Origin: a virus | Virus record (IMG/VR): IMGVR_UViG_3300036831_000043 | Location: 1-39,693 of that record | Direction: 5' to 3' (one strand) | Length of the DNA stretch: 39,693 bases | Shown: positions 1,229-39,693 of the stretch, in pieces | How the letters are laid out: each line of letters starts with the position of its first letter | How positions within the stretch are numbered: the stretch's first letter is position 1 | The notes under the pieces: generated by a model | Told to the model about the DNA's origin: nothing | Databases searched by the model: none | What the model saw: only the letters and a program-made list of their open reading frames with translations | Translations under genes and position numbers: made by a program

Positions 1229-1230
1229 AA

Positions 1231-1253
1231 CCCGCCACCAGGCGGGTTTTTTT
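1231..1253 (+). terminator. Intrinsic terminator
   Basis: Perfect 6-bp stem CCCGCC/GGCGGG with an ACCA loop and a run of seven T. It lies between the 124-aa gene and the muramidase-like gene inside the late block, so it probably attenuates rather than ends late transcription. Confidence 0.8.
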
Positions 1254-12607: not shown

Positions 12608-12733
12608 CGCTATGCGCGGTCTGTGCAGCCAGCGCCATAGCTCGCGCAGGCCGTGGACGATCAGCGCCAGCGTGCAGGTTGTACAGAACATGATTTGTTG
12701 TGTACTCAGTTCGCCCAGGGCTTCGTTAATCAT
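12443..12733 (-). CDS. Possible antisense small membrane protein
   Basis: A 96-aa reverse-strand ORF whose first part fills the gap between the glucosaminidase and fibre genes and whose last part overlaps the glucosaminidase gene antisense by 165 bases. The N-terminus contains a possible single membrane segment (QQIMFCTTCTLALIVHGL) followed by Arg/Trp-rich residues (RELWRWLHRPR), a positive-inside pattern; 40-100 aa with one segment could suit a holin or anti-holin. There is no good Shine-Dalgarno sequence and the C-terminal half may be only a shadow. No other holin is obvious in the genome, which makes the ORF worth noting, but support is weak. Confidence 0.3.
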   Translation of the reverse strand: MINEALGELSTQQIMFCTTCTLALIVHGLRELWRWLHRPRIASARAAERPQQTAQHGGPGEPLREWCDSASGWVDVATLGEGLTLQRRTKLVRVQQ

Positions 12734-12734
12734 A

Positions 12735-12800
12735 TAGCACTCTGCCAGCATTACGCTGTCGTATTGATATCATTTCAGCAGCACACAGTTAGCACAATGC
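12735..12800 (+). repeat. 11-bp repeat array, 6 units
   Basis: Six consecutive 11-base periods upstream of the fibre gene. The best units are TAGCACTCTGC (12735), CAGCATTACGC (12746), CAGCACACAGT (12779) and TAGCACAATGC (12790); the two central ones are degenerate. One more unit (TAGCACAGTGA, 12808) follows out of phase. No TTGCAC-16-TACACT promoter is seen here. Confidence 0.75.
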
Positions 12801-12827
12801 TGCACTATAGCACAGTGAGGCTTTACC

Positions 12828-15242: not shown

Positions 15243-15425
15243 ATGAAAACCGTTCTGGCCGCGCTCGCAACCCTCGCGCTAACCAGCTGCACGTTTATCT
15301 ATATCCGTGGCAACGCAAACAGCCTGGACGACGTAGGCGGGCATGGCGGCGGTCTGGAATTCTCGCAGGACCGCAAACCCCTGGCGGACCTCATACACCC
15401 GGCCACGCCCGCCACGCACCATTAG
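15243..15425 (+). CDS. Small lipoprotein, possible paralogue
   Basis: A 60-aa protein. MKTVLAALATLALTSCTFIY gives a signal peptide and lipobox LTSC; the mature part is about 45 residues, Gly/His-rich. It lies 3 bases after the other lipoprotein with nearly the same first five residues and closes the late operon. Its stop TAG overlaps the TAA stop of the convergent gene (bases 15422-15425), and no terminator is visible between them. Function unknown. Confidence 0.6.
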   Translation: MKTVLAALATLALTSCTFIYIRGNANSLDDVGGHGGGLEFSQDRKPLADLIHPATPATHH

Positions 15426-16480: not shown

Positions 16481-16532
16481 GGTTGTTTCCTCCTTTGGGC
16501 GGCGTCGTCGTAAGTAATAGGCCATGGTTAAA

Positions 16533-16560
16533 AGTGCAGCAGAGTGCTAGCGAAGTGCAA
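16533..16560 (-). promoter_or_regulatory. Array-embedded promoter for the HTH gene
   Basis: On the reverse strand: TTGCAC (16555-16560), a 16-bp spacer containing TGCTAGC, and a weak -10 TGCACT (16533-16538). Same design as the promoters at 18172, 21195, 29468 and 30118. Confidence 0.45.
16537..16558 (+). repeat. 11-bp repeat array, 2 units
   Basis: CAGCAGAGTGC then TAGCGAAGTGC in phase. The second unit encodes the end and the stop of the small membrane protein gene on the reverse strand. Confidence 0.7.
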
Positions 16561-16693
16561 ACCAGAGAACGACAAAGATAACCGGCAGGAAAACCGCATA
16601 AATCACAGCGAACGTGCGCCGCAGACGGCGTTTCTGTCTATCCATTTCTTCCATACTCATAAAGGGCACTGGATGAAATTCTCTGTGTTTCAT
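16547..16693 (-). CDS. Small single-pass membrane protein
   Basis: A 48-aa protein starting at the ATG at 16693 after AGGTGAGCCC; longer upstream starts lack this site. A charged N-terminal half (MEEMDRQKRRLRRT) is followed by a membrane segment FAVIYAVFLPVIFVVLWFAL at the very C-terminus. It is a tail-anchored or N-in single-pass protein. Proteins of this size in phage early operons often target host envelope processes or act as holin-like factors; nothing more specific can be said. Its last codons lie inside an 11-bp repeat unit. Confidence 0.65.
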   Translation of the reverse strand: MKHREFHPVPFMSMEEMDRQKRRLRRTFAVIYAVFLPVIFVVLWFALR

Positions 16694-18111: not shown

Positions 18112-18131
18112 TATTGCCTGTTCCAGAATGA

Positions 18132-18197
18132 CAGCAGGCCGCTAGCATTCTGCTAGCGACCCGACAGCACAAATATAGCATTATTGCAGCACTTCGC
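18132..18197 (+). repeat. 11-bp repeat array, 6 units
   Basis: Six units in exact 11-bp phase, including TAGCATTCTGC (18143), CAGCACAAATA (18165), TAGCATTATTG (18176) and CAGCACTTCGC (18187). It spans the gap between recT and the next leftward gene and runs into the end of the recT coding sequence. Confidence 0.85.
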
Positions 18198-18199
18198 AA
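18172..18199 (-). promoter_or_regulatory. Array-embedded promoter
   Basis: On the reverse strand: -35 TTGCGA (18194-18199), 16-bp spacer, -10 TATATT (18172-18177). The start point would lie about 55 bases before the ATG of the 202-aa gene. The operator units cover both hexamers. Confidence 0.6.
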
Positions 18200-19353
18200 C
18201 GTTCCCGGTAGACCGCTTCGAGTGCTGCGCGTTCGTCTGCGCTGGCCAGTTCGCGTATTTCGTCGGCGGCAATGTCCAGCACGTCGCGCGTTTTTGCGCC
18301 CAGCAGCGCGCCGCGTATACGTTCGCCCAGGGACTGGCCCGGCATGTCGTCAAAGTCGGTTCGCAGGCTTTCCGGTTCGTCGTCCATAACCGTATTTCCA
18401 GCGCCCGCCATTTCCGGTTCGCGCTCGCGCGTGCTGTCGCCCATTTCCATATCCAGCGTCGGGCTGGGGTTGTCTTCCAGCATGAGGGCCGCCGTGTTGC
18501 CCAGTTCAATTTCGTCAGCGTTCGGCGCGCGCAGCGCGTCCATAATGACCATTTCGACCGACACGGGCAGGAATTTAAAGAGGCGACGTACAACCGTTTT
18601 CAGCGCCATTTGCTCGAAATCGGTTTTCCAGGGGCCGTCGTATTTCTCGATATCGGTTTTGTTTTTGGCAAAACTGCGATTGCGGATAACTTCGACCTCT
18701 GCACGCGACATAACCGCGAACTGGCGGCCACCGTCTTTAAGCCGGGCGACAGCGTACACGAAACGCAGATTTTCCGGCGACGTGCGGCCCGCGTTTTCCC
18801 AGTCGGGTTTATGGATCAAAGACGGTTCCAGCCCCAGCGTGCATTCGAACGCGTCGCCGACGTACACCGGCCAGGCTTCGATAGATTCAATCTGGCCGCT
18901 ACGGCGCGCTAAATCAATCATGCCGCGATAGCCTAGGATGACCGTGGCCACCGTTTCCAGCAGCACCCAGCGCGTGCCCTCTTTCTTCCAGCGGTCAAAC
19001 GGCACGATATACACATGACCCAGCGCAGAACCGGGCTCCAGCCCCAGCTGCGCGCACTGGATGACAGCGCCCAGGAAAGACTGCGGCGAACACTGCGCCA
19101 GCTTGGGCGTTTTGCGTAGTTCGGTTGTCGCAATGCGGATCAGTCTTTCCGCCGTCAGATGACGCGGCAGCGCTCGCGCAATCTGTGCCATGACCGCAGG
19201 CGACGCCAGGAATTTGGCGAGGGCGTCGGCCTGGGCGTTCGCCGTCAGCGGTACATTCTGGCCAGCGCCATTCGTACCGGCAACCGCATTCGAGATATCG
19301 GCGCCACCGTTACGGGCTTGCAGGCGCTGTTTCAGTTTTTCTGTCTGTGTCAT
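18181..19353 (-). CDS. recT: RecT-family single-strand annealing protein
   Basis: A 390-aa protein. The RecT signature runs from about residue 80 (PKLAQCSPQSFLGAVIQCAQ, then LGLEPG) through YIVPFD, VLLETVATVILGYRGMIDLA and RRSGQIESIEAWPV, to FEQMALKTVVRRLFKFLPVS. RecT binds single-stranded DNA left by an exonuclease and anneals it to complementary strands, giving phage homologous recombination and repair. The C-terminal ~120 residues are acidic and variable. Directly upstream (15 bases) lies the partner exonuclease. AAGGGGC precedes the ATG. Confidence 0.92.
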   Translation of the reverse strand: MTQTEKLKQRLQARNGGADISNAVAGTNGAGQNVPLTANAQADALAKFLASPAVMAQIARALPRHLTAERLIRIATTELRKTPKLAQCSPQSFLGAVIQCAQLGLEPGSALGHVYIVPFDRWKKEGTRWVLLETVATVILGYRGMIDLARRSGQIESIEAWPVYVGDAFECTLGLEPSLIHKPDWENAGRTSPENLRFVYAVARLKDGGRQFAVMSRAEVEVIRNRSFAKNKTDIEKYDGPWKTDFEQMALKTVVRRLFKFLPVSVEMVIMDALRAPNADEIELGNTAALMLEDNPSPTLDMEMGDSTREREPEMAGAGNTVMDDEPESLRTDFDDMPGQSLGERIRGALLGAKTRDVLDIAADEIRELASADERAALEAVYRERCEVLQ

Positions 19354-19368: not shown

Positions 19369-20289
19369 TTACTTGCCAGCCGCAGCTGCGGTTTCTTTAA
19401 ACTTTGCTACGCGGATATCCCAATACTCGATTGCGTCCACCGTGTACCCGGCGCGCTTGCGCTTCGCGCGCTTCATGGCCTGGCCGTCGTCAAACACCAG
19501 CTGCGCGTTTTCGCCCATTTCGGCGACCAGATGCGCTTTTGCACCCTTCGCCATGTCTTCATACATGGCCGCCTTTTCGCTGGCTTCGGTCATGACCTTA
19601 TACCAGGCTTCATGCTGGGGCGTGGCCGTGACGTGTTCGCCGTTCGTACCCGGATACAGGCGGCGCAGCGTTTCGAAAACCTTTGTATGGTTCGGGTCAA
19701 TGTCGGGGCGCAGACCCGTCAGCACATAGCCGCGCCAGAATGCGTCGGCTTCATGGCGCATAAGATCAATCAATGCGTCGTCACGTTCGACAAAATACTG
19801 TCGCAGTTCGTCGCCGACACCGGCATACACCACGCACAGTTCGCGGCCCGTGATACCTAAACCCCATTGGGTTTGGGCCAGGTAGTGAAACGGCATGCCG
19901 TCGCTTTCCTGTTCACCCCATTCTTTAGAAAGGAACGGATGCACGGTTTTAACTTCGCCATTGACCGGCACGCCGTCAACAGACGTTTCAAAGTCAATTT
20001 CTGATGCGAAAAACGGAAACTGCGAATCGACAAAGCGGCGGTTTCTGTGTTCGACCACTAACCCGAAGTCTTCGGCGGCCCAGTCCAGAATAACCGGCTC
20101 CATGCGTTTCCCGCGACGCGTGGCGAGATTATCGGAGTCGGGGCGCGTTTCCGGCTGTACCTTGTCAAGCCAGCAATCCAGGCCGCTACGGTACGGATTC
20201 ACGCCCAGGATTGCGGCAATGTCAGACCCGCCCACAAACTGGGTCCGGTCGTATTTTTCGGGGGAAATGAGAGTGGGGGCGGTTTGCAT
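19369..20289 (-). CDS. YqaJ/RecE-type exonuclease
   Basis: A 306-aa protein. I set the start at the ATG at 20289 after AGGA; the first 22 codons of the longer frame lie in the promoter. YqaJ-type nuclease motifs are present: GGSDIAAILG (20-29), RMEP with Glu64, the Asp in ASEIDFE (about 99), GEVKT with Glu112 and Lys114, and HYLAQTQWGL (about 135-144). This is the lambda-exonuclease fold that degrades one strand of double-stranded DNA and feeds single strands to RecT. It is paired with recT directly downstream. A TATACT -10 lies about 34 bases upstream of the ATG. Confidence 0.9.
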   Translation of the reverse strand: MQTAPTLISPEKYDRTQFVGGSDIAAILGVNPYRSGLDCWLDKVQPETRPDSDNLATRRGKRMEPVILDWAAEDFGLVVEHRNRRFVDSQFPFFASEIDFETSVDGVPVNGEVKTVHPFLSKEWGEQESDGMPFHYLAQTQWGLGITGRELCVVYAGVGDELRQYFVERDDALIDLMRHEADAFWRGYVLTGLRPDIDPNHTKVFETLRRLYPGTNGEHVTATPQHEAWYKVMTEASEKAAMYEDMAKGAKAHLVAEMGENAQLVFDDGQAMKRAKRKRAGYTVDAIEYWDIRVAKFKETAAAAGK

Positions 20290-20322
20290 GTTGCGTAGTC
20301 CTATGGGGTTGACAGTACGCAC

Positions 20323-20351
20323 AGTATAAAACGGAGTGTTGCAAAGTGCTA
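20323..20351 (-). promoter_or_regulatory. Promoter for exonuclease-recT
   Basis: On the reverse strand: -10 TATACT (20323-20328), a 17-bp spacer, -35 TAGCAC (20346-20351) formed by a repeat unit. The array covers the -35 region, as expected for a repressible promoter. Confidence 0.5.
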
Positions 20352-20393
20352 GCACTTTTTCAGCATAGCGCTAGCACAGTGCAACATTACAGC
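20339..20393 (+). repeat. 11-bp repeat array, 5 units
   Basis: Five units in exact phase, including TAGCACTTTTT (20350), CAGCATAGCGC (20361) and TAGCACAGTGC (20372). It lies between two leftward genes and overlaps the stop of the upstream one. Confidence 0.85.
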
Positions 20394-21129: not shown

Positions 21130-21143
21130 GGTTCGTTTTCCTC

Positions 21144-21231
21144 TGCTGATGCGCTAGCAGTGCGCTAGCAATGGGTTATCGAAGTGACAGCAGAATGATA
21201 ACACAGTGCTAGCAAAGTGCAACACTTTCAG
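21144..21231 (+). repeat. 11-bp repeat array, 8 units (longest)
   Basis: Eight consecutive 11-bp periods. Clear units include TAGCAGTGCGC (21155), CAGCAGAATGA (21188), TAACACAGTGC (21199) and TAGCAAAGTGC (21210). The flanking unit AACACTTTCAG (21221) recurs as AACACTTGCAG at 26139 and AACACTTTTCG at 29494. Confidence 0.9.
21195..21222 (-). promoter_or_regulatory. Main leftward early promoter, array-embedded
   Basis: On the reverse strand: -35 TTGCAC (21217-21222), a 16-bp spacer holding TGCTAGCA, -10 TATCAT (21195-21200). The operator array covers the whole promoter and extends downstream toward the first gene. Confidence 0.65.
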
Positions 21232-21332
21232 GCGAACAGACCGCCGCATGGTGAAACGGTATATGCGCCCAGGTATAGCGAAAGCGGAAATAATTGCAAG
21301 AAAAATATTCAGCTTAAATTCAGCTGAAACTA

Positions 21333-21612: not shown

Positions 21613-21885
21613 ATGAAACAGCAACACCTTTGCGCGCCGCGTGGCGCACTCAGCCCCGACGCGCGGGCGCTTCTGGCCGTCATGATGACCGCCGCCGCAA
21701 TGGGCCGCCTGACACACCAGGCCGCCCGCGACGCGTGCCGTCTGCCCGTTCCCGCCTACGCTTACGCGCTGGGCCAGCTGGAGCGCGCGGGCATATTGCC
21801 CCGCCTGTTTGTTTCGCGTGAAACCGTGGTTTTTACGGTCTGCGCTTGCGTCGCCTGTGCCCGGCTGGCTGGGGGCGCGCAATGA
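21613..21885 (+). CDS. Small protein upstream of putative rep gene
   Basis: A 90-aa protein. The ATG at 21613 follows GAGAAAAAAGAA. The helical region SPDARALLAVMMTAAAMGRL, then THQAARDACRLPVPAYAYAL and GQLERAGILPR, has the layout of a winged-helix DNA-binding domain (recognition helix followed by LERAGILPRLFVSRETVVF as the wing). It overlaps the putative replication gene by ATGA, so the two are co-made. A small replication or copy-control DNA-binding protein is plausible but unproven. Confidence 0.6.
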   Translation: MKQQHLCAPRGALSPDARALLAVMMTAAAMGRLTHQAARDACRLPVPAYAYALGQLERAGILPRLFVSRETVVFTVCACVACARLAGGAQ

Positions 21886-23036
21886 CCCCGCAAACCGAAC
21901 CAATCCAGATCACGATAGACCGCGACGCCCTCGCGGGTATGAACGCCGCGCAGCGTCTGCACTGGCTCGCCGAACAGGCGCACATTCCCGAAACGACCGA
22001 AGACGGCGACGAAGACGACGACGGCCCGCTAGCCGACCCGGAAACCCGCGCCGGTTACGACGCATGGCGCCAGAGCGGCCACCGTTCATTCAACATGCAC
22101 GAAGCCGAAGCCATAGCCGCCGCGCACGGCCAGCCGCTGGTGTATGGAATTTTTTGCAGCATGTTCGCCTACCGGCTGAACGGCGGCGGCGGCTGGTGGA
22201 CGAAGACCGCGCCCGATTGGTCCGACGACCTGGGCGTAGGGGTTCCGCAGTTCCGGCGCGTGCAAACGGTCATGACCAAAGGCAAATTGGTGCGCAGCAG
22301 GATAGGGCGCTGCGCGGTTGCGTCGTATCAGCTGGATTTTGATGCTTTAACAGCCCTCACATACGCCCATGGTGAGGCCATGGGGGTTGATTTTAAAGGG
22401 CTGGCGGCCCGGTTTGGCGGAAATCGTCAAACCGTGAAACAGACCCGCGAAAAGTTTCACAGTTTGGCAGAAACCGTCGAATGCTTTGACGAAAACAGTC
22501 AAACCCGTATACAGGGTAAACAAACCTTAAAACCCCCTGTGGCGCCTGTGGATAACGCAGCGCAACACGACGGCAGCAGAGAACCGGGCGAAGACGACGA
22601 AACACAGTCAAAACCTATTGGCGACGATTCGGCGATAGCGGAAAGCGAAAACGCCGAACAGATGCTAACCGCGTACTGCGAAGCGAACGGCGTCAAACAT
22701 AAGCCCATGGTCGTACATACGCACGTCACCGGACAGCGTATAACGCCCGCCGAAGCCCGCGCGCTGATTGCCAAAGCCCGCACGCTGGGCGAACCCGTAG
22801 ACAGCTGGCGATGGTTTGAAACCCATTTGCAACTGATGCGCAACCAGCGTGGAACCGACCCGCGCAACACGCCAACGGGCGGTAATGCCGACTTCACGCT
22901 AACCCGGCGTCAGCTGGCCGCGCTCGATCACGCGCAGGCACACCCGCCGAACCCGGAAGACCAGGCGCGCAGCATGGAAACGATACGCGCGGTACTGAAA
23001 CCGCATTGCAAGGCATTGACCAAGGGCAACGAATGA
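21882..23036 (+). CDS. Putative replication protein with winged-helix domain
   Basis: A 384-aa protein. I chose the ATG at 21882, which overlaps the previous stop and follows GGGGGCGCGCA. The N-terminal part is acidic; residues about 85-150 (MFAYRLNGGGGWWTKTAPDW, then SDDLGVGVPQFRRVQTVMTK, then GKLVRSR) fit the winged-helix of phage replication O/DnaD-type proteins, in which a helper helix is followed by a turn and a recognition helix. The C-terminal half contains a helical DnaT/DnaD-like stretch. It lies next to a noncoding region with inverted repeats, and no other initiator is seen, so it is my best candidate for origin recognition. A transcription regulator is the alternative. Confidence 0.5.
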   Translation: MTPQTEPIQITIDRDALAGMNAAQRLHWLAEQAHIPETTEDGDEDDDGPLADPETRAGYDAWRQSGHRSFNMHEAEAIAAAHGQPLVYGIFCSMFAYRLNGGGGWWTKTAPDWSDDLGVGVPQFRRVQTVMTKGKLVRSRIGRCAVASYQLDFDALTALTYAHGEAMGVDFKGLAARFGGNRQTVKQTREKFHSLAETVECFDENSQTRIQGKQTLKPPVAPVDNAAQHDGSREPGEDDETQSKPIGDDSAIAESENAEQMLTAYCEANGVKHKPMVVHTHVTGQRITPAEARALIAKARTLGEPVDSWRWFETHLQLMRNQRGTDPRNTPTGGNADFTLTRRQLAALDHAQAHPPNPEDQARSMETIRAVLKPHCKALTKGNE

Positions 23037-24470: not shown

Positions 24471-24733
24471 ATGACAACCCGAAGTGCCCGCACTGCGGCA
24501 AGGATAACGACGGCCATGCAATATTTGGCAGTCTGCTACACGTACCGCACGACGGCGACGTGTCGCTATGCGCCTATTGCGGCGGCTGTAGCGTCTTTGA
24601 GGGCGGCCAGATACGCACGCCGACCGACGACGAACAGCGCGAGCTAGACGCCGACCCGCGCTTACGCCGCGCTCGCGTAGTGCTGGCGATTATCAGCATG
24701 AGAAACGCGATTGAATGGGATACAAAACACTAG
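24467..24733 (+). CDS. Zinc-ribbon protein
   Basis: An 88-aa protein. It starts at ATG 24467, overlapping the previous stop. CPHCGKDNDG and CAYCGGCSVF give a two-knuckle zinc ribbon separated by about 27 residues, followed by an acidic helical tail. Phage zinc ribbons often bind DNA, RNA or host polymerase parts; the role here is unknown. The stop TAG is the first three bases of an 11-bp repeat unit. Confidence 0.65.
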   Translation: MNDNPKCPHCGKDNDGHAIFGSLLHVPHDGDVSLCAYCGGCSVFEGGQIRTPTDDEQRELDADPRLRRARVVLAIISMRNAIEWDTKH

Positions 24734-24752
24734 CATTGTGCTAGCATATCGC
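24731..24752 (+). repeat. 11-bp repeat array, 2 units
   Basis: TAGCATTGTGC then TAGCATATCGC in phase, followed by an offset CAGCACGCG. It lies directly upstream of the promoter at 24763. Confidence 0.75.
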
Positions 24753-25265: not shown

Positions 25266-26110
25266 CCATCGACCGTGGCGCAGTACAGGAACTGATGGCG
25301 CTAAGTGTTTCGAGTCTGGAAGCACGCCGCGCGCTGGAACAGGGCATACCCTACGCGCTGGTCCCGCCAGAGTGGGACGTTAAAGCACTCGAAAACCTGC
25401 TGGAACACCCGACGCGCGTGCGCGGTACGACCAAGCTCGGCGACGCCGACAGCTTCTGCGCGTGGATCAACGAACGCAAGTTGCCTATCACGCGCGTGTA
25501 TGCCGTGAATAACCACGCGGACGGCGTGCAGTTCGTCGGCGTGCTGGATGACACACTAAGCGCAGAGGCGCCGCAGTGGGCCGAATGGCGGGCCGCGTAT
25601 CAGCCGCTTGTGTCGCCTGAATGGCAGATATGGAGCGGCATGAGCGGCAAGCGCGGCGCGCAGAAAGACTTTGCCGAATTCGTTGAAAGCAACGTGGACG
25701 ACGTTTTTAGCAGTGGCGAACATGAGCCCGTGGGCGCCGTTCTGCTGGAACTCGCGCAGGTACTGCACGCGACCATCAAGGCCGAATTTTCCAGCGCTGT
25801 GCGGCTGTCGAATGGCACGACACAGCTGCGCTACGCCGAAACCATGCAGGCCACTGGCGGCAGCGGTTCGCTGGAAGTGCCAGAAATGTTTTTCCTGTCG
25901 ATTCCGGTATTCATGGGCGGCCCACACTACAAAGTCGCAGCGCGTCTGCGCTATCGCGTGCAGGGCACGTCGTTACAGATTGGTTATGACCTGGTACGCC
26001 CGCATAAGGTAGTGGAAAAGGCCGCCGACGACATTATTGCGGTAATCACCGACAAGACCGGCATTACGCCCTATATGGGCGTGCCAGCAGGAACGCGGAC
26101 CATTCTTTAG
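25262..26110 (+). CDS. DUF2303 (YfdQ-like) protein
   Basis: A 282-aa protein. The sequence fits DUF2303: ADSFCAWINERKL near residue 65, FVGVLDD and WRAAYQPLVSPEWQIWSG, KDFAEFVESNVDDVF and the C-terminal VPEMFFLSIPVFMGG with YKVAARLRYRV. The length is typical. The family is widespread in phages and prophages near recombination or replication genes, and its biochemical role is not established. The stop TAG is shared with a repeat unit. Confidence 0.85.
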   Translation: MTIDRGAVQELMALSVSSLEARRALEQGIPYALVPPEWDVKALENLLEHPTRVRGTTKLGDADSFCAWINERKLPITRVYAVNNHADGVQFVGVLDDTLSAEAPQWAEWRAAYQPLVSPEWQIWSGMSGKRGAQKDFAEFVESNVDDVFSSGEHEPVGAVLLELAQVLHATIKAEFSSAVRLSNGTTQLRYAETMQATGGSGSLEVPEMFFLSIPVFMGGPHYKVAARLRYRVQGTSLQIGYDLVRPHKVVEKAADDIIAVITDKTGITPYMGVPAGTRTIL

Positions 26111-26149
26111 CAGTGCTAGCAGAATGGCGACATAGTGCAACACTTGCAG
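26108..26149 (+). repeat. 11-bp repeat array, 4 units
   Basis: A shortened first unit (TAGCAGTGC), then TAGCAGAATGG (26117), CGACATAGTGC (26128) and AACACTTGCAG (26139). It fills the gap between the DUF2303 gene and the next gene. Confidence 0.75.
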
Positions 26150-27165: not shown

Positions 27166-27567
27166 ATGCGCGACCTCTCACACCTGAACCGCTGGCGCGT
27201 GCCATTGCATGGCCAGCTGGGCGACGCACACAATGGAGCGTTCCAGCTGCGCGTGCGCCCGTCACCCGTGCGCGTGTTCGTCATTTCCAGCGACGGCGGC
27301 GGCTGGGATCATGTCAGCGTCAGCGTAGCGAACGAACGCCGCTTGCCGACGTGGGCCGAAATGCACCACGTAAAGCGGCTGTTTTTTCACGACGACGAAG
27401 CGGTAATGCAGCTGCACCCGCCCGCGTCGGAATATGTCAACAATGCCGAAGTGCTGCATATGTGGCGACCGCAGGAACTGGATTTGCCATTACCGCCGCG
27501 CTGGATGGTCGGATTACCGGGCGTCGCGCCCGCCGACATGCCGCGCATAATGGCAGCACTTCGCTAG
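27166..27567 (+). CDS. DUF7694-like phage protein
   Basis: A 133-aa protein. The segment GGGWDHVSVSVANERRLPTW, then EMHHVKRLFFHDDEAVMQLH and PPASEYVNN with a later HMWRP, matches a widespread phage family of unknown function that I know as DUF7694, in which a conserved Glu/His/Lys set and the LHPP motif suggest a small enzyme or binding fold. It ends at a repeat array (stop TAG) facing a convergent gene. Confidence 0.7.
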   Translation: MRDLSHLNRWRVPLHGQLGDAHNGAFQLRVRPSPVRVFVISSDGGGWDHVSVSVANERRLPTWAEMHHVKRLFFHDDEAVMQLHPPASEYVNNAEVLHMWRPQELDLPLPPRWMVGLPGVAPADMPRIMAALR

Positions 27568-27586
27568 CGTTCTGCTAGTCGGGGCA
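27554..27586 (+). repeat. 11-bp repeat array between convergent stops, 3 units
   Basis: CAGCACTTCGC, TAGCGTTCTGC and a degenerate TAGTCGGGGCA in phase. Both convergent genes use TAG stops made by GCTAG sequences of this array (27565-27567 forward, 27575-27577 reverse). No gene starts here, so this array is not a promoter operator. Confidence 0.75.
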
Positions 27587-28907: not shown

Positions 28908-28930
28908 AAAAAATGCCCGCTCGCGCGGGC
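28908..28930 (-). terminator. Intrinsic terminator, leftward
   Basis: Stem GCCCGC/GCGGGC (28915-28920 with 28925-28930), 4-base loop and, on the reverse strand, six T after the stem. It lies after the gene at 28938-29300. Confidence 0.8.
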
Positions 28931-28937
28931 GTGTTGT

Positions 28938-29300
28938 TTAAATCCGTTCGCGCTGTTCGTCGCACCAGTCATCAAACTGGCCGTACTGCACATAGGCCGC
29001 CGACCCATACGCGGGCCGCGCTTCGCGCCAGTGCGTTAAATCCAGCTGGCCGCCCGCGCGCTCGATACGGGCCAGCAGCTGTTCTGCGGCGCGCTGGGCC
29101 GCTTCGCGCACGTCGCCGAAGTGCCAGTAGCCGTCTTCGTCGCGCTGGGCGTCAGCGCCCGGAAAATTCGTTTCATGGCGCCAGCGGTTGCCGCTCGCGT
29201 CTTCGGCCATGACGTAATACAGTTCCGCCGTGAAATCCTGGCCGTCTTCGGTTCGGCCAGCCAGGTATAAATCCGATCCAACATCAAAAGAAAGTTTCAT
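28938..29300 (-). CDS. Hypothetical protein
   Basis: A 120-aa protein starting at the ATG at 29300, two bases after the stop of the small gene upstream. It has a beta-rich N-terminus (KLSFDVGSDLYLAGRTEDGQ, then FTAELYYVMAED), a helical middle and a C-terminus with YGQFDDWCDEQRER. Family unknown. Confidence 0.65.
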   Translation of the reverse strand: MKLSFDVGSDLYLAGRTEDGQDFTAELYYVMAEDASGNRWRHETNFPGADAQRDEDGYWHFGDVREAAQRAAEQLLARIERAGGQLDLTHWREARPAYGSAAYVQYGQFDDWCDEQRERI

Positions 29301-29440: not shown

Positions 29441-29467
29441 TTTTCGCCCTCGCTAACCAGTAAAGAC

Positions 29468-29495
29468 AGTGTAGCAGAATGCTAGCAAAGTGCAA
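29468..29495 (-). promoter_or_regulatory. Array-embedded promoter
   Basis: On the reverse strand: -35 TTGCAC (29490-29495), 16-bp spacer with TGCTAGCA, -10 TACACT (29468-29473). Closest match to the common promoter design, with a gene start at the right distance. Confidence 0.7.
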
Positions 29496-29504
29496 CACTT
29501 TTCG
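29472..29504 (+). repeat. 11-bp repeat array, 3 units
   Basis: TAGCAGAATGC (29472), TAGCAAAGTGC (29483) and AACACTTTTCG (29494), all in phase. A clean example of the basic operator. Confidence 0.85.
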
Positions 29505-29863: not shown

Positions 29864-30082
29864 TCAGCAGTCGAATTTATCCACTTTGGCCAGGGCGACA
29901 ACCTCGCCCGACAGATCACGCACGGCCACGCCGTAATCACCACTGGCCAGCAGGCTAAACGTGACCGTAAAGCGGCCTACATGGCGCGGCTCGCGTGTCT
30001 CGTTTGCCCGGCATGCGTCAAAAATTGCATTCTGTGCTTCGCCCTTGCGGACCTTGCCTTTAAGAAAACTTACGTCGTACAT
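29864..30082 (-). CDS. Hypothetical protein divergent to parA
   Basis: A 72-aa protein starting at the ATG at 30082 after AAGGGGC. A basic N-terminal half (SFLKGKVRKGEAQNAIFDAC) precedes a beta-rich C-terminal half (RFTVTFSLLASGDYGVAVRD). It is transcribed from the leftward member of the mirrored promoter pair in the 30.1-kb array. Family unknown; a regulator of the par locus is possible only by position. Confidence 0.6.
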   Translation of the reverse strand: MYDVSFLKGKVRKGEAQNAIFDACRANETREPRHVGRFTVTFSLLASGDYGVAVRDLSGEVVALAKVDKFDC

Positions 30083-30117
30083 TCTGCGCCCCTTCTGTTC
30101 GTTGATTCAGTAAACGA

Positions 30118-30145
30118 AGTGTAGCATAACAGCAGCAAAGTGCTA
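30118..30145 (-). promoter_or_regulatory. Leftward promoter of the divergent pair
   Basis: On the reverse strand: -10 TACACT (30118-30123), 16-bp spacer, -35 TAGCAC (30140-30145). The operator units cover it completely. Confidence 0.6.
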
Positions 30146-30198
30146 GCACTTTTTAATGTGTTCAGAGTGCTGTCATAACGCTAGCGCTGTGCTACACT
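30122..30198. repeat. 11-bp repeat array with dyad, 7 periods (par locus)
   Basis: Seven 11-bp periods between two divergent genes. The left part reads forward (TAGCATAACAG, CAGCAAAGTGC, TAGCACTTTTT) and the right part reads as the reverse complement (AACGCTAGCGC, TGTGCTACACT), so orientation changes near 30160. AGTGTAGCA (30118-30126) and TGCTACACT (30190-30198) form a perfect inverted repeat at the edges. Best candidate for the centromere and par operator. Confidence 0.85.
30171..30198 (+). promoter_or_regulatory. Promoter of parA-RHH operon
   Basis: TGTCAT (30171-30176), a 16-bp spacer carrying CGCTAGCG, and TACACT (30193-30198), with AGGGGCAGGA before the parA ATG at 30222. The operator covers it, which suits autoregulation by the RHH protein. 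Confidence 0.6.
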
Positions 30199-30221
30199 GA
30201 AAAAAACGAATAGGGGCAGGA

Positions 30222-30878
30222 ATGACAATCTATGTTGTCGCCCACACCAAGGGCGGAACGGGCAAGACGACGATTAGCGTCCAGACTTCGCTGGCGCTGT
30301 CACTGCTGGAGCGGCGCGTGTGGTATATCGACGGCGACAACCAGCAGACCGGTATGAAATCCATGACCATGCGCGAAACGCTGGGCAGGCGCGAACCCAT
30401 ACCGGCCAGCGCTTACCCGGACCATGCGCAGATGCGCAGCCAGGCCCGCGCGCAGGCCCGGCTGTTTGATGACACTGTGATAGATTGCGGCGGCGGCGAC
30501 AGCAAAACGCTACGCGTCGCCCTGCTGGTGGCAGACGTGCTTATCGCGCCCATGAATGTTGGAATCTATGAACTTTGGGCGCTGGAAGACCTGGAAAACG
30601 TGGTGCATGAGATCAACGCAGCGCGCGAAACCCCGCTGGTTTGCCGCTCACTGCTGAACTGTGCCGACCCGACCGACACGCCCGACAACCGCGAATGCCG
30701 CGACTACGCGCAGGAATCGGAACTGTTCGGCAACGTGTTCACCACACAGATTGCACGCCGTAAGGCTATCGGGCGCGCGAGTGCGCGCGGCCTGTCGGTT
30801 CAGGAATACACGCCACGCGACGCTAGCGCAGTGGCAGAAATTGACGGCTACATTAACGAACTTTTGAAGGTGCATTAA
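30222..30878 (+). CDS. parA: ParA-family partition ATPase (small, type Ib-like)
   Basis: A 218-aa protein. The deviant Walker A motif HTKGGTGKTT has signature Lys10 and P-loop Lys15; the A' motif is YIDGDNQQT (about 36-43) and the Walker B region is DTVIDCGGGDSK (about 84-95), followed by DVLIAPM. The protein starts directly at the ATPase fold and lacks the N-terminal HTH of type Ia ParA. Type Ib ParA proteins of this size (such as ParF) form ATP-dependent gradients on the nucleoid and move DNA bound by a small partner; operon control is left to the partner. The next gene starts directly after the stop and encodes an RHH protein. An alternative is a ParA-like helper of another process. Confidence 0.88.
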   Translation: MTIYVVAHTKGGTGKTTISVQTSLALSLLERRVWYIDGDNQQTGMKSMTMRETLGRREPIPASAYPDHAQMRSQARAQARLFDDTVIDCGGGDSKTLRVALLVADVLIAPMNVGIYELWALEDLENVVHEINAARETPLVCRSLLNCADPTDTPDNRECRDYAQESELFGNVFTTQIARRKAIGRASARGLSVQEYTPRDASAVAEIDGYINELLKVH

Positions 30879-31154
30879 ATGAACGCAACACGAAAAACCA
30901 GTGAAACCGCAACCGTTTTGCGTGCAGGCCGCAGCAAGGCTACAGTATCGAACGACGCGGCAAAGACGGCGCTTAAAACCGGCGTGAAGAAAACCGCCGC
31001 TGGCAACGCGCGCAAGCGCGAACGCGTCATGGTGAATACACCCGTGGACATGATGCCGCTGATTCGCGCCGACGCAGAGGAAACCGGCGTAACCATGTCT
31101 ACCTGGTATGTTCTGGCCGCGAAAGAAAAACTGGCAAAGGCTAACGGAAAATGA
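30879..31154 (+). CDS. Ribbon-helix-helix protein, putative centromere-binding partner
   Basis: A 91-aa protein starting at the base after the parA stop. Residues 1-47 form a basic, Ala/Thr/Lys/Arg-rich and probably flexible tail. Residues about 48-88 fit the RHH fold: strand ERVMVNTP, helix MMPLIRADAEETG, turn GVT, helix MSTWYVLAAKEKLAKAN. This layout equals that of ParG, omega and other type Ib partition proteins, where the strand pair of each dimer binds a short direct repeat and the flexible tail stimulates the ATPase. I infer that it binds the 11-bp repeats. No experiment or search supports this beyond motif and context. Confidence 0.72.
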   Translation: MNATRKTSETATVLRAGRSKATVSNDAAKTALKTGVKKTAAGNARKRERVMVNTPVDMMPLIRADAEETGVTMSTWYVLAAKEKLAKANGK

Positions 31155-31618
31155 AACCCGGCGCGCTGTTCGATTGGCTGTACGACCGCATAGGCAACCC
31201 ATACGACGCGCGCTGGACCGCCGCCCACTGCGCCAGCATGGGCGTAACGCAGGCGGCCCGTGTAGTGGGCATGCTGGCGCCCGCCGAAGCCGTCCAGGAT
31301 TACGTGCATACCGTCATGCGCGGCGAACGCGCGCTGGAGTGGTGGAAACAGGGTTTTTCCGCTGTCGGCTCACTGATGCCCATGATTTTTATGATCGCAG
31401 GCCAGTACCTGAACGGCTCCATAGGCTGGTGGATTTTTGCGGCCCAATGCGTCTGGCTGTTTCTGTGGACGTTCGTCGGTCTGCCCTGGCTGTTCTACAC
31501 GATAACCGCCCAGCAGCTGGAGCTACGCGCGAACGCGCTTACGGCCATGTGTGAAAGGAGCAACGCCACCCAGGAACAGTTAAACCGTGCGGCGCAGCGT
31601 CTGGACATGGGCGAATAA
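31151..31618 (+). CDS. Membrane protein in par operon
   Basis: A 155-aa protein. Two hydrophobic spans, about residues 74-92 (GSLMPMIFMIAGQYLNG) and 95-120 (WWIFAAQCVWLFLWTFVGLP), are linked by a tight turn, giving a hairpin membrane protein with both ends on the same side. The C-terminal helix is charged (LELRANALTAMCERSNATQE). It overlaps the RHH gene by ATGA. Possible roles: holin, or an envelope-altering protein of the prophage state; no family recognised. Confidence 0.68.
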   Translation: MKPGALFDWLYDRIGNPYDARWTAAHCASMGVTQAARVVGMLAPAEAVQDYVHTVMRGERALEWWKQGFSAVGSLMPMIFMIAGQYLNGSIGWWIFAAQCVWLFLWTFVGLPWLFYTITAQQLELRANALTAMCERSNATQEQLNRAAQRLDMGE

Positions 31619-33363: not shown

Positions 33364-33783
33364 ATGCGCCGTGACGATTGCACTATTGCCGACGACCTCG
33401 CAGACGCGGATTTGCACGCGCTTTGCTTGCGCTGGGCCGAATGGCACAGGGAACACGGGCTACTGGTCCCGCCGATCCCGAAAAATATCCTGGCCCGATA
33501 TCAGCCGTCCAAAGTGCGGCCCGCGCCCTATATCGGCTTTTCCCCCGCGCTGTCGCTATTCAACACGGCCATAAATGCCCAGGACGACAGCCCCGCCAAA
33601 AACGCGTTCCTGCTGTTCTACCTGGTCCCGGCGCGCAGCGTAAAGGAATCAGCCGCCGCCCTCGAAATCAGCCGCGACGGCTTTTACAGGCGCGTTCGGC
33701 GGTTCCGGCGCAAAGCCTATAACACGGCGCTGGCGCTGGAGAAATCCGCCGAATCGGCCCGCGTTCTGGCAGCGGAATGCTAG
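33364..33783 (+). CDS. HTH antiterminator-like late regulator
   Basis: A 139-aa protein. TAGGGGGCTGT precedes the ATG. The C-terminal part, FLLFYLVPARSVKESAAALE, then ISRDGFYRRVRRFRRKAYNT, is an HTH of the sigma-factor-like type seen in phage Q antitermination proteins, with a strongly basic recognition helix. The N-terminal part (LRWAEWHREHGLL) also fits that family layout. The gene lies directly before the late leader, which contains a terminator, the arrangement of Q, pR' and tR' in lambdoid phages. A transcription activator of the late promoter is the alternative. Its stop lies in a repeat unit. Confidence 0.62.
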   Translation: MRRDDCTIADDLADADLHALCLRWAEWHREHGLLVPPIPKNILARYQPSKVRPAPYIGFSPALSLFNTAINAQDDSPAKNAFLLFYLVPARSVKESAAALEISRDGFYRRVRRFRRKAYNTALALEKSAESARVLAAEC

Positions 33784-33802
33784 CATTGTGCTAGCGTTAT
33801 GA
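33770..33802 (+). repeat. 11-bp repeat array, 3 units
   Basis: CAGCGGAATGC (33770), TAGCATTGTGC (33781) and TAGCGTTATGA (33792) in phase. The first unit lies in the end of the antiterminator-like gene, the stop comes from the second, and the array stands just before the late leader. Confidence 0.75.
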
Positions 33803-33930
33803 ACGTGTAGACAGATTCTGTCTTAAAAAAGGTTTTGGGGCCAGTCTACAAAAAACCCTATTATTGCCCGTGATTCGATAGGTTGTGGCCGTGCGCCCAG
33901 CGGATTGAGTCAGACCCTTCGTTAGAATTA
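33803..33930 (+). promoter_or_regulatory. Late leader with dyad elements
   Basis: About 130 bases with AGACAG/CTGTCT (33809-33823, 3-base loop) and a wider TAGAC/GTCTA pair (33808-33812 with 33844-33848). A weak promoter TTGGGG (33835-33840), 18-bp spacer, TATTAT (33859-33864) is possible. This is where the late promoter and the antiterminator target should lie. The exact promoter is uncertain. Confidence 0.45.
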
Positions 33931-35244: not shown

Positions 35245-35781
35245 ATGCCAGCACACGAACGCCGCCGTTTTGAGTACGTCACCGAACGTATGCGGCAACA
35301 GGCTACAGGCTTTGACCCGGAATTTATCGTATTTGCGCGCAAGCTCGCATTACTGGGGCTGTCGCGCCGCGAAATCGCCCGCAACCTGGGGGCGTCGCCC
35401 AATACGTTTGATATCTGGTGCAGGGATTACCCCGAATTCCGCCGCGCGCTGGACGACGGAATGGTAATTGGTGATTTTGCCGTGGTGGAAGGGCTGTTAA
35501 AGCGCTGCACCGGCTATTTCGTCAAATGCCGCGAATGGAAGGGCGGTAACGTCGTCGGCGAAAAGGAATCGTATGTGCCGCCAGAAGTCGGCGCGTGCCA
35601 GTTCTGGCTGATTAACCGCCAGCCCGACCTGTGGAAGCCGGTAACGAAGATTGAAACGGGCGCGCCGTCGTATAGCGACCTGAACGCCCGCCCGATGATC
35701 GAATATCCGCCGAAACAGCCGGAAAGTAACGAACCGATAGCTGCACCCGATGCCGCGCCGAATCCAGCCCCGCAGGAATGA
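35245..35781 (+). CDS. terS: Terminase small subunit
   Basis: A 178-aa protein with CGGAGAAACGACC upstream of the ATG. The HTH-like segment FARKLALLGLSRREIARNLG, then ASPNTFDIWCRDYPEFRRAL, is the DNA-recognition type found in phage small terminases, followed by a helix region for oligomerisation and a Pro/Ala-rich tail. It recognises packaging DNA and feeds it to the large subunit. The next gene, which overlaps by 32 bases, is the large terminase. Confidence 0.85.
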   Translation: MPAHERRRFEYVTERMRQQATGFDPEFIVFARKLALLGLSRREIARNLGASPNTFDIWCRDYPEFRRALDDGMVIGDFAVVEGLLKRCTGYFVKCREWKGGNVVGEKESYVPPEVGACQFWLINRQPDLWKPVTKIETGAPSYSDLNARPMIEYPPKQPESNEPIAAPDAAPNPAPQE

Positions 35782-37159
35782 CTGGGACGACGGCGACGAA
35801 CCGGACGGGGAAATAGCAGTACAGACCGCCTGGACGCCGACGCCGAAACAGGCTGAATACCTCGCGGCGTCTGAATTCGAAGTGCTGTACGGCGGCGCAG
35901 CTGGTGGCGGCAAAACCGACGCGCTGGTAATCGACGCCATGGGGCTATGGCAGAACGCGATTCTGCATAGCGATTACAAGGCAATCATTTTTCGCCCGAC
36001 ATACCCCGAACTGCGCGAGATTGAACAGCGCATGAGGGAAATTTACCCGCTGGCCTATCCTGGCGCGGAATTCAATAAAACCGATCACGTCTGGCACTTT
36101 CCCAGCGGCGCCGAAATATACACGTCGTATCTGGAGCGCGAGGAAGACCGCTATAACTGGCAGTCGTTCGAATTCCAGTTCATTGCATTCGAAGAACTGA
36201 CGCAGTGGCCGAACGACGTTTGTTACACGTACCTTTTTTCGCGCTTGCGCACGTCCAATCCTGATTTGCGATGCGTCATACGCGCGAACTGCAACCCAGG
36301 CGGGCGCGGTCATGCCTGGGTCCGCAAGCGCTGGGGAATCAGGGACGACGGCGGCCCGACGCTATCACGGCAGATAGTGGAACTGGCCAGCGGCGAACAG
36401 CGCACCATTTCGCGGCGGTTCATTCCGGCGCGTCTGTCTGATAACCCGTATCTTGGGGCCGACTATGAAGCGACCTTGCTATTGCTCGGCGAAATGGAGC
36501 GGCGCGCGCTGTTATCGGGACGCTGGGACGTGATAGAAATTCCCGGCGCGATTTATAAAAAGGAACTGGAAACAGCCTTTTTCCAGAATCGCATAGGCCG
36601 CGTTCCGCACGAACCGACACTGCCCGTCCATACCGTGTGGGATTTGGGCGTGGGCGACGCCACCGCCATATGGTTCTGCCAGGTTGTCGGTATGGAGCGG
36701 CGCTGTATCGACTATTACGAAATGACTGGCGAAGGGTTGCCGCACTATGCGCGCGTGCTGAAAGAGCGGGAATACAACTATGGGTTGCACTTCGCGCCGC
36801 ACGATATCGCGGTTAGGGAACTGGGCACAGGCCGCAGCCGTTTCGAAGTCGCGCAAAGCCTGGGCATTCAGTTTCAGACGACGCCGAATTTACCGCTGGA
36901 AGACGGCATACACGCGGCCCGAACCATTCTGCCCACTATCTGGTTTGACGCGGAAAAGTGCGCGCGGGGCGTCGAATGCCTGACCAATTACCGGCGCGAA
37001 TATAAAGAAAAGTATGGCGAGTTTTCGAGTCTGCCCGTGCATGACTGGGCAAGCCATGGCGCTGACGCGTTCCGCTATCTCGCGCTGGACGTGCCCATGA
37101 TGACCAACGCCACCAGCTGGGGCAGTTCGCTGAAATATCCCAAGCTCACCATTGCGTAA
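35750..37159 (+). CDS. terL: Terminase large subunit
   Basis: A 469-aa protein. ATPase motifs: an adenine-type Gln in TPKQAEYL, Walker A GGAAGGGKT (residues 48-56) and Walker B FQFIAFEE (142-149), with NCNPGG as a coupling motif. Nuclease domain: VWDLGVGDAT (Asp about 298) and HDWASHGADAFRYL (about 428-441), RNase H-like acidic sites. It cuts and pumps phage DNA into the head; the motif set suits headful packaging as well as other types. The ATG at 35750 overlaps terS and lacks a ribosome site, so coupling is likely; no alternative start fits better. Confidence 0.93.
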   Translation: MPRRIQPRRNDWDDGDEPDGEIAVQTAWTPTPKQAEYLAASEFEVLYGGAAGGGKTDALVIDAMGLWQNAILHSDYKAIIFRPTYPELREIEQRMREIYPLAYPGAEFNKTDHVWHFPSGAEIYTSYLEREEDRYNWQSFEFQFIAFEELTQWPNDVCYTYLFSRLRTSNPDLRCVIRANCNPGGRGHAWVRKRWGIRDDGGPTLSRQIVELASGEQRTISRRFIPARLSDNPYLGADYEATLLLLGEMERRALLSGRWDVIEIPGAIYKKELETAFFQNRIGRVPHEPTLPVHTVWDLGVGDATAIWFCQVVGMERRCIDYYEMTGEGLPHYARVLKEREYNYGLHFAPHDIAVRELGTGRSRFEVAQSLGIQFQTTPNLPLEDGIHAARTILPTIWFDAEKCARGVECLTNYRREYKEKYGEFSSLPVHDWASHGADAFRYLALDVPMMTNATSWGSSLKYPKLTIA

Positions 37160-37509: not shown

Positions 37510-39693
37510 TGCCAACTATCAGCCAGCACGACGACGCCGAAGACGTTGAAATTACGCGCGAAACGTTCAACGAACCCCGCAGCCGCGACGCGATGGACGA
37601 CGACGAAGTACGCGGCATTACGGACAAGTTTATCCAGGAAGCGGCCAGCTTCTGTTTCGACCAGGTAGGCGCAGAGCGCAACCGCGCCATGATGTATTAC
37701 CTGGGGCTGGCCGAAGACGATTTAGCCCCGCCAGCTGTCGCCGACCGTAGCGCGGTTGTATCGACCGACGTTAGCGACACAATCGAATGGATGCTACCCG
37801 CGCTAATGTCCATTTTTACGGCGGGGCCGTCTGTGGTGGAATTCACGCCGCGCAAGGCCGACGACGAAGACGCCGCCGAACAGGCGACCGAATATTTAAA
37901 TTACGTGTTCTACCAGCAGAACCCAGGCTGGGAAGCTATCTATACGTGGTTTAAAGATGCGCTAATCCAGAAAGTCGGAATCATGAAAGTGTGGTGGGAC
38001 GACACACCGGAAACCGTCACGGAGTTTTACCGGGGGCTCACCGAAGACCAGCTCACCGACATGCTGGAAGACGACACCGTAGACCCGATAGAACACACGG
38101 CCTATCCAGACCCCGAAGCACTGCACGCCGCGCGTGCGCAGTACCAGCAGGCCGTGCAGGACTACAGCCGCCAGCAGGCCATGATTCAGACGCTGATTAG
38201 CACCGGCTGGCCAAAACAGATGGCCGAACAGGCGGCCAGTGCCGCCGTGCAACAGCGGCAATCGCCCGCGATGACCGGCGCCACACCGCCGCCGCCGCCT
38301 AAACCGAAGCCACCGCCGCCGCCGCCCCAGCAGGCCGCACCGCCGCCGCCACCAGCCGCACCAGCAGGCCCGCCACCGGGCGCAGCTGGTCCCGCTGGAC
38401 CCATGCCGCCACCGGGCGCCGCTGGGGCGCCTGGCGGCCCGATGGCAGGCCCACCGCAGCCGCCCGCACCGCCGTCACCGCCGCCGCTACTGAAAGCCCC
38501 GCAGGAACCCGACCCGGCGACGTTGCCGCAGCTGCACGACTTGCGGCTAAAACGCACCAAGGCAGGCGGGCGCGTGAAAATCGCACCCGTGCCCGGCGAA
38601 GAATTTTTGATCCACCCGGATTGCGCGACGGCGCGCGACGGTTTCACCGCGCACCGCGTCAAACGCACAATTGGCTATCTGCGCGACCGTGGTTATAAGA
38701 ACGTAGACGACATTACCAGCGACAACGCCATACCCGAAGGGCCGACCGGCGCGCAGGGCGCCATGGTCGATGCGCGCTACGCCTTGCAGAACAGCGCGGG
38801 CAGCCAGCTTTACGCCGACAACACCGGCAAGGGCGACGACAGCCAGCGCGAAGTGTGGTTAACCGAATGCTATATGCCGCTCGATGTGGACGGCGACGGC
38901 GTGCCCGAATGGCGAAAGATTACCCGCGCTGGCGACCAGCTGTTAGACAACGAAGCGATAGACGGGCCGCCCTGGGCGACGCTGTGCCCGGTTCCAATCC
39001 CGCATGTATTTTTCGGGCGTGGTGAGGCCGATTTGGCCATGCCCGCCATGCGGACCAAAACGCAGATTCTGAGAAACGCCCTCGATAACCTCGCGTTCCA
39101 GACCAACGCGCGAACATTCGCCGTGGATAACATGGTGAATCTGGACGACCTTTTGACGAACCGGCCTGGCGGCGTCGTTCGGATGAAACAGGCGGGCATG
39201 GCGGGGCCGCTCGGCTCTAACGCGGGCGACCCGGCTGTAGCAATGCAGATGCTGCAATATGCCGACGAACAGAAACAGGACGCGACGGGCGTTACGAAAT
39301 ACACGCAGGGCAGCGACGCCGACACGCTGAACAAGACCGCGACCGGCTTGCAGAACATCACTAACCGCGCTGATATGCGGGTTGAACTCGTCGCGCGGAT
39401 TTTCGCCGAAACCGGCGTTAAAGACCTGTTCTGGCTAATGCTGAAACTGTGCGCCCAGTACCAGGATAAACCGTCTGTGGTGCGGCTCACCGGCAAATGG
39501 GTTTCAGTAGACCCGCGCGAGTGGTTTAACCGCTTCGACATGCAGGTAAACGTAGGACTGGGCACAGGCAACAAAGACACGGCAGTAGCCCATTTACAGC
39601 AGATTATGCAGCTGCAACAGGCAGGCATGCAGGCGGGTTTCTGCACGCCAAAGAACATGTATAACGCCGCCGCGAAACTGTGCGGCGTGCTGG
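37509..39693 (+). CDS. Portal protein, N-terminal part (continues at base 1)
   Basis: The reading frame is open from ATG 37509 (GAGGATATGAAGTA upstream) to the window end and resumes at base 1, giving about 902 aa in all. RSAVVSTDVSDTIEWMLPAL, then MSIFTAGPSVVEF (about residues 80-112), is the conserved N-terminal pattern of P22/podovirus-type portals, and QATEYLNYVFYQQNPGWEAI follows. An unusual insertion at about residues 259-335 is dense in Pro, Gly and Ala, with runs of five or six Pro. The portal forms the DNA gate and the motor dock. The insertion should sit in an exposed loop. Confidence 0.9.
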   Translation, partial: MPTISQHDDAEDVEITRETFNEPRSRDAMDDDEVRGITDKFIQEAASFCFDQVGAERNRAMMYYLGLAEDDLAPPAVADRSAVVSTDVSDTIEWMLPALMSIFTAGPSVVEFTPRKADDEDAAEQATEYLNYVFYQQNPGWEAIYTWFKDALIQKVGIMKVWWDDTPETVTEFYRGLTEDQLTDMLEDDTVDPIEHTAYPDPEALHAARAQYQQAVQDYSRQQAMIQTLISTGWPKQMAEQAASAAVQQRQSPAMTGATPPPPPKPKPPPPPPQQAAPPPPPAAPAGPPPGAAGPAGPMPPPGAAGAPGGPMAGPPQPPAPPSPPPLLKAPQEPDPATLPQLHDLRLKRTKAGGRVKIAPVPGEEFLIHPDCATARDGFTAHRVKRTIGYLRDRGYKNVDDITSDNAIPEGPTGAQGAMVDARYALQNSAGSQLYADNTGKGDDSQREVWLTECYMPLDVDGDGVPEWRKITRAGDQLLDNEAIDGPPWATLCPVPIPHVFFGRGEADLAMPAMRTKTQILRNALDNLAFQTNARTFAVDNMVNLDDLLTNRPGGVVRMKQAGMAGPLGSNAGDPAVAMQMLQYADEQKQDATGVTKYTQGSDADTLNKTATGLQNITNRADMRVELVARIFAETGVKDLFWLMLKLCAQYQDKPSVVRLTGKWVSVDPREWFNRFDMQVNVGLGTGNKDTAVAHLQQIMQLQQAGMQAGFCTPKNMYNAAAKLCGVL
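39508..39693 (+). repeat. Terminal duplication of window bases 1-186
   Basis: Identical to bases 1-186 except at three positions: 39509 (A versus G at 2), 39557 (A versus G at 50) and 39566 (A versus G at 59). It lies within the portal gene, so it reflects a circular or permuted molecule in assembly rather than a biological terminal repeat. Confidence 0.9.

Follow-up and report, generated by a model that had tools for sequence, protein, structure and literature searches.

Type Ib partition systems have an RHH protein that binds repeats ahead of the operon and represses the operon; its flexible N-terminus, which contains an arginine finger, engages ParA (PMC5016525). The omega protein of pSM19035 uses arrays of 7-bp repeats, which overlap promoters, both in the role of parS and as operators; it stimulates its ParA only with four or more contiguous repeats (PMC9499535). 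The prophage of KS14 is a plasmid with a separate putative repressor, gp5 (PMC3091744).

The virus record analysed here, taken from IMG/VR and 39,693 bp long, is called the window in the following; it carries a ParA-RHH gene pair and arrays of 11-bp repeats. The Burkholderia plasmid prophages KS14 and FLC5 resemble it by a ParA that is about 39% identical, a small RHH gene downstream and 8-bp palindromes (TGATATCA) at 11-bp spacing before parA. Unlike the window, they have about 40 bases between parA and the RHH gene, their arrays lay only at the par locus in those stretches that were analysed, and KS14 differs further by its separate putative repressor. In delta-omega of pSM19035 the RHH repeat arrays overlap promoters and serve as operators and centromeres, a double use that we propose by analogy for the window. 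Yet, delta-omega has 7-bp non-palindromic repeats, separate transcription and six sites, in contrast to 11-bp palindromic units, abutting genes in one operon and about 14 arrays here. TP228 ParF-ParG-parH shares with the window a small ParA (the alignment with ParF is full-length), an RHH partner with an N-terminal tail, presumably flexible in the window protein, and upstream repeats, and its ParG is a weak structural match to the RHH protein of the window; unlike in the window, genome-wide arrays are not described for TP228 in the literature found. The repeats of ParR of plasmid R1 have a length of 11 bp. In ParMRC of R1 the repeats likewise flank the promoter of the par operon (PMC5016525), but ParM is actin-like and ParR carries its RHH at the N-terminus, while the window ATPase is of the ParA/MinD type; the systems are not homologous. 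Because ParR partners an actin-like ATPase, the likeness to ParR drawn in an earlier note on this DNA holds for the geometry of the repeats and does not extend to the system as such.

Results

Genome and relatives

The ends of the window (1-186 and 39510-39693) overlap by 184 bp at 98.9% identity with two mismatches. The overlap indicates that the window is a phage genome, probably complete or circularly permuted, the mismatches being those of a complete genome with population variants and not of an exact terminal repeat. A nucleotide search of phage records gave no match to the window. Two close full genomes, G019 and G020, were available for comparison; these relatives of the window phage have ParA proteins 75% and 71% identical to that of the window, respectively. 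A tyrosine integrase, a serine resolvase, HTH_3 or an S24 repressor was found in none of the three genomes, which fits a plasmid prophage silenced by another kind of repressor. More distant relatives without ParA share a 139-aa gene (about 43%), terminase and capsid with the window phage. There were no TGCTAGCA arrays in the examined loci of these ParA-less relatives, and no 11-bp array of any palindromic core in the five largest of them.

Table 1. Genes and repeat arrays of the window, with positions of the counterparts in G019 and G020
Feature	Position	Strand	Basis or counterparts
4- to 5-unit array upstream of gene ending 1772	1179-1233		syntenic G019 5833 (8 units)
7-unit array upstream of tail collar gene 12828-13616	12729-12808		syntenic G019 17551, G020 9089 (6 units each)
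3-unit array upstream of minus gene 16525->15422	16531-16566		syntenic G020 12607
7-unit array upstream of leftward operon starting 18111	18118-18194		syntenic G019 24930, G020 14345
RecT	18181-19353		
YqaJ-type exonuclease	19369-20355		
5-unit array, start of exonuclease (YqaJ)/RecT operon	20336-20390		syntenic G019 27166, G020 16575
Longest array, 7-8 units, upstream of leftward operon 21129->20387	21138-21228		syntenic G019 27951, G020 17363
Replication-like gene	21846-23036		
3-unit array upstream of operon 24900->	24714-24749		syntenic G019 31355, G020 23905
4-unit array at start of gene 26135->26842	26103-26146		syntenic G019 32723, G020 25169
3-unit array between convergent gene ends	27548-27583		syntenic G019 33723
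3-unit array	29466-29501	-	counterparts G019 35483, G020 28136
Left half of inverted pair before parA, 3 x 11 bp	30116-30151		conserved G019 36042-36077, G020 28918-28953
Right half of inverted pair, 3-4 x 11 bp	30154-30200		conserved G019 36080-36126, G020 28966-29012
parA, 218-aa Walker-type ATPase without N-terminal HTH	30222-30878	+	Pfam, phrog_164, ParF profile
RHH protein, 91 aa, putative centromere-binding protein and repressor	30879-31154	+	AlphaFold2, Foldseek, orthologues
3-unit array, end of gene 33364-33783, ahead of operon 33965->	33764-33799		syntenic G019 39491, G020 31691 (6 units)
Large terminase	35750-37159		

The ParA-RHH gene pair

ParA matched MipZ (1.8e-12), AAA_31 (5e-12) and CbiA (3.4e-10) in Pfam and phrog_164, 'ParA-like partition protein', in PHROG (4.1e-31), and the motif KGGTGKTT is located at residue 10. 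Because the protein starts with MTIYVVAHTKGGTGKTT, an N-terminal HTH domain is absent. The profile of the ParA family aligned end to end with ParF (PDB 4dzz, residues 3-214). The parA stop codon TAA (30876-30878) directly abuts the ATG (30879) of the 91-aa gene; thus the gap between both genes is zero. A ParA without an N-terminal HTH and a 91-aa gene following it without a gap had been claimed in the earlier note, and both statements were borne out.

The same note regarded the 91-aa protein as an RHH protein with a basic tail and called for a structure prediction. AlphaFold2 with a family alignment of 31 members modelled residues 51-90 at a pLDDT of about 95, with a predicted fold of an extended strand followed by two helices like an RHH monomer. 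This model superseded a first one from 3 sequences, which was poor (pLDDT 67). Arc, CopG and AmrZ took the top ranks in Foldseek with prob 0.95-0.99 and E no better than 0.14, a weak E being expected for a domain so short; ParG was a weak structural match at rank 29 with E of 1.7. The N-terminal half is basic with 12 K+R vs 3 D+E in residues 1-48. Its putatively flexible tail, which was modelled at low confidence, contains a conserved ETAxxLRAGR, and R15 and R18 are invariant in the three orthologues. The predicted fold and the charge of the tail agree with the description as RHH protein.

Orthologues of the 91-aa protein are present in G019 (58% identical) and G020 (46%). No Pfam or PHROG family matched the protein in a sequence search, as a sole query against viral contigs it found nothing, the 3-member RHH alignment retrieved only G019 and G020, and a sequence profile of the RHH clade had no match in the PDB. 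By sequence the protein is tied weakly to the wider RHH family, with E = 0.0054 for the G019 orthologue and an hhalign probability of 61%.

The gene of a 155-aa predicted membrane protein with hydrophobic stretches (31151-31618), conserved in both G019 and G020, overlaps the stop codon of the RHH gene (ATGA) and may belong to the ParA-RHH cassette.

Repeat unit and arrays

The repeat unit of the window consists of the 8-bp near-palindrome TGCTAGCA plus 3 bp. Genome-wide, 10 pairs of near-copies were spaced by 11 bp and 7 by 22 bp compared with about 1-2 for other spacings. When a position matrix built from the window alone was combined with chaining at 11 bp, it called 14 arrays in the window vs 0.1 in Markov sequences. 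The same matrix called 15 arrays in G019 and 14 in G020 with a null of about 0.1 and at most 1 in random sequence. In an untrained count of 256 palindromes at periods of 8-16, TGCTAGCA at 11 bp was the commonest in the window; in G019 and G020 it was the only top entry that was not codon-periodic, i.e. not at a multiple of three. Because the matrix was trained on the window itself, the untrained count and the matrix run on G019 and G020 weigh more. Weak arrays inside genes were not counted as firm (window 23572 and 10319, G020 6480, G019 34522 and 39129).

Most arrays have 3 units. Before parA, 3 units run leftward and, after a spacer, 3-4 inverted units run rightward, all 11 bp apart. According to the earlier note the longest symmetrical array lies just before the operon. 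A symmetrical pair is indeed located there, but the longest contiguous arrays of 7-8 units are those at 12729, 18118 and 21138.

For eight sites (the parA pair and seven others) the array lay at the same place between orthologues in each of the three genomes; about five further sites were common to two of the three. G020 lacks both the array at 1179 and its gene, which supports a link between the two. The arrays are mainly non-coding with a mean coding fraction of 0.36-0.42 vs 0.82-0.90 at random positions. A gene start was found within 300 bp of 11 of the 14 arrays in the window, 11 of 15 in G019 and 12 of 14 in G020 (random about 0.4).

The sigma70 promoter score was 7.0 for array DNA vs 4.3 for other intergenic DNA. 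Several leftward arrays coincide with promoter-like hexamers, e.g. TTGCAC-16-TACAAT in G019. The array at 29466 coincides with TTGCAC (29490-29495), 16 bp and TACACT (29468-29473) on the minus strand, and its counterparts show TTGCAT-16-TACAAT (G019 35483) and TTGCAA-16-TAACAT (G020 28136). The corresponding promoter-like sequences were TTGCAC-16-TATCAT in the array at 21138 and TTGCGA-16-TATATT in that at 18118. At parA, the left half of the pair overlaps a -10-like TACACT (30118-30123, minus strand) facing the gene 29864-30082, and the right half overlaps a weak promoter-like CTGTCA (30170-30175), 17 bp and TACACT (30193-30198) facing parA. At the promoter boxes the outer units are less palindromic and approach TTGCAC and TACACT/TACAAT instead, which would be expected if one sequence served polymerase and repressor alike. 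Because most arrays lie near gene starts and several cover promoter hexamers, the arrays probably are operators as well.

On the other hand, promoter-like scores over 43 arrays were clear in about a dozen and moderate or absent in the rest, and we rejected the view that all arrays are promoters. The array at 27548 had no promoter-like hexamers and is a candidate for a pure centromere site. Could the repeats be a mere consensus of phage promoters, with -35 and -10 boxes about 22 bp apart by chance? Several arrays do coincide with TTGCAN-16-TAnnnT. Yet, arrays reach 5-8 units, one is located at convergent gene ends, many have no good promoter, and the periodicity recurs with other cores across the ParA-RHH family (see below); we consider this explanation extremely unlikely.

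Two other repeats were seen in the window. An 11-bp pair, ATTCAGCTTAA ATTCAGCTGAA (21307-21329), lies ahead of the rightward operon at 21583, which alone among the main operons lacks a TGCTAGCA array of its own; the pair is possibly a different operator. An inverted repeat, GTAGACAG...CTGTCT...AGTCTAC (33805-33850), lies between the array at 33764 and the operon that follows. L307, a fragment of another relative, has a similar TGTAGACAG...TGTCTACA at the same place and, syntenic to the 33764 site, an 11-bp array (1490-1525) with another core (about TGCNGCA).

The wider ParA-RHH family

We compared the ParA loci of plasmids, further bacterial contigs and phages, 166 in all. An RHH gene lies directly downstream of parA in 158 of them. 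The 150 bp upstream of parA were self-similar at lags of 11, 22 and 33 (0.348, 0.338 and 0.313 vs about 0.265). After dereplication at 60% ParA identity, which left 21 loci, the periodicity persisted, with 0.355 at lag 11. The usual repeated unit is an 8-bp palindrome, which varies by RHH subfamily. The core TGATATCA is paired with the RHH strand ISLTI in KS14-like loci, CGATATCG with ISLG in many Burkholderia-type phages, GGATATCC with FSVG in the Pseudomonas-type, TAATATTA with QISLT in others and TGCTAGCA with RVMVN in the window. In 18 dereplicated loci bases 1-3 of the half-site were associated with the DNA-facing strand residues while base 4 was not; because of the number of loci and the uncontrolled shared ancestry the association is only suggestive. 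A description of 11-bp arrays for this ParA-RHH family was not found in the open-licence literature.

The comparison supports the type Ib layout seen by the earlier note: the gene pair recurs in plasmids and plasmid prophages together with 11-bp-periodic palindromes upstream of parA. A search for homologous pairs with the same repeat, also suggested there, was successful for G019 and G020 with their TGCTAGCA arrays, while other subfamilies had other cores.

Like KS14-like loci the window has 8-bp palindromes at an 11-bp period before parA, with TGCTAGCA as the core. In nearly all other members, however, arrays are confined to the par locus, whereas 14-15 are dispersed in the clade of the window. 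Among about 70 loci with clear arrays that were tested, only L209 and L210, both of this clade, had two or more arrays outside the par locus.

A ParA-like gene was also present in 82 Vibrio phage records. In Vibrio phage K303 it is followed by small genes, one of them encoding 79 aa, and near-11-bp repeats are located upstream of parA.

Do the dispersed arrays belong to the RHH protein? They might be operators of another phage regulator with the ParA-RHH operon as merely one target. Examples are a 367-aa protein with an HTH_Tnp_1-like N-terminus (15422-16525) and the 139-aa protein (33364-33783). Both are conserved in G019 and G020, and the former has a weak match to a DNA-binding domain (HTH_Tnp_1, E = 2e-4). 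Yet, its best PHROG match, again weak, is a terminase small subunit (E = 0.006), the 139-aa gene is also found in distant relatives without ParA and arrays, and the wider family links 11-bp palindrome arrays to ParA-RHH loci. We consider another regulator unlikely.

A search for contigs with GCTAGCANNNTGCTAGC led to arrays in replication genes of ParA-less phages, which we judged to be a separate system met via motif selection. In L003, L005, L006, L009, L013 and L119 an O-like replication gene contains TGCTAGCA-type arrays with some 3-4 units spaced by 11 bp, often two arrays about 93-175 bp apart; these probably are origin iterons. The 4-unit TGCTAGCA arrays at 11 bp inside the O-like gene of such unrelated contigs may suggest that the arrays of the window, too, are iterons for a phage replication initiator. 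However, the contigs share no regulator, replication protein or RHH with the window in the loci examined, and they were retrieved by the motif search itself, so the likeness is a selected one. Furthermore, no array of the window lies inside its replication-like gene; the arrays are spread over gene starts. Iterons are a very unlikely explanation here.

Discussion

The locus combines several elements of a type Ib system: a small Walker-type ParA without an N-terminal HTH, an RHH gene adjoining parA as judged from gene position and predicted fold, sequence-only tests being weak, and direct and inverted repeats upstream of the operon at 30116-30200, which are conserved in two relatives. We regard it as fairly likely that this cassette is type Ib-like and that its RHH protein, bound to all arrays, acts as centromere-binding protein and genome-wide repressor. 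As for the parts of this reading, binding of the arrays by the RHH protein appears highly probable from sequence comparison, a role of the cassette in partition is likely, and use of the arrays as operators, too, is reasonably probable. Repression, stimulation of ParA and plasmid maintenance by the cassette are functions that we infer. The earlier note had proposed the 11-bp repeats as centromere-like binding sites of the RHH protein. The comparison supports the binding, in that the core varies by RHH subfamily and ParA-less relatives are array-free in the loci examined, but 'centromere' is too narrow a term.

The cassette could work as follows. An RHH dimer would bind one TGCTAGCA-like 8-bp palindrome per 11-bp unit, and the 11-bp spacing would place adjacent dimers on the same face of the helix and allow them to cooperate. 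On the inverted array before parA the RHH protein would repress its own operon and form a partition complex, in which the tails engage ParA. Sites of the RHH protein would also have spread to roughly a dozen further locations, chiefly promoter regions, and through them it would repress a large part of the phage genome. The longer arrays (12729, 18118 and 21138) and the promoter-less one at 27548 may be extra centromeres. By analogy, short arrays would be operators, and longer arrays and the inverted parA pair would be centromeres in addition. Because most arrays have 3 units and omega needs at least four, 3-unit arrays may be operators only.

Alternatively, the ParA-RHH pair could bind the arrays and yet regulate or position DNA in the lytic growth of a virulent phage instead of serving plasmid inheritance. 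There is no known lysogen, and many Vibrio phages, too, have a ParA-like gene with small genes behind it. According to a Vibrio phage survey whose text mentions ParA, the isolates studied there, which may be other phages, were predominantly virulent (PMC13230959). On the other hand, among characterised elements the closest relatives are plasmids and KS14, a plasmid prophage (PMC3091744). We hold a purely lytic role to be distinctly unlikely and favour the view that the phage probably persists as a plasmid prophage.

An extension of the partition and repressor reading, which we offer tentatively as possible but somewhat doubtful, is that the RHH protein acts as master repressor of the prophage state, instead of a repressor of CI type; the promoter-embedded arrays would then silence most promoters and act as dispersed centromeres. 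If so, a phage that loses the RHH protein would be induced and would at the same time cease to be inherited.

Compared with known ParA-RHH cassettes, the novelty is a phage-wide set of arrays on a type Ib-like cassette. The 8-bp palindrome at an 11-bp period is a cis-element common to a large family of plasmid and phage ParA-RHH loci. Its cores seem to vary in step with those residues of the RHH strand that face the DNA, so that a recognition code and incompatibility groups of plasmids built on that code can be tested directly. If our reading is right, partition and lysogeny control of a phage-plasmid would be fused in one small RHH protein, an economical way to maintain an unintegrated prophage.
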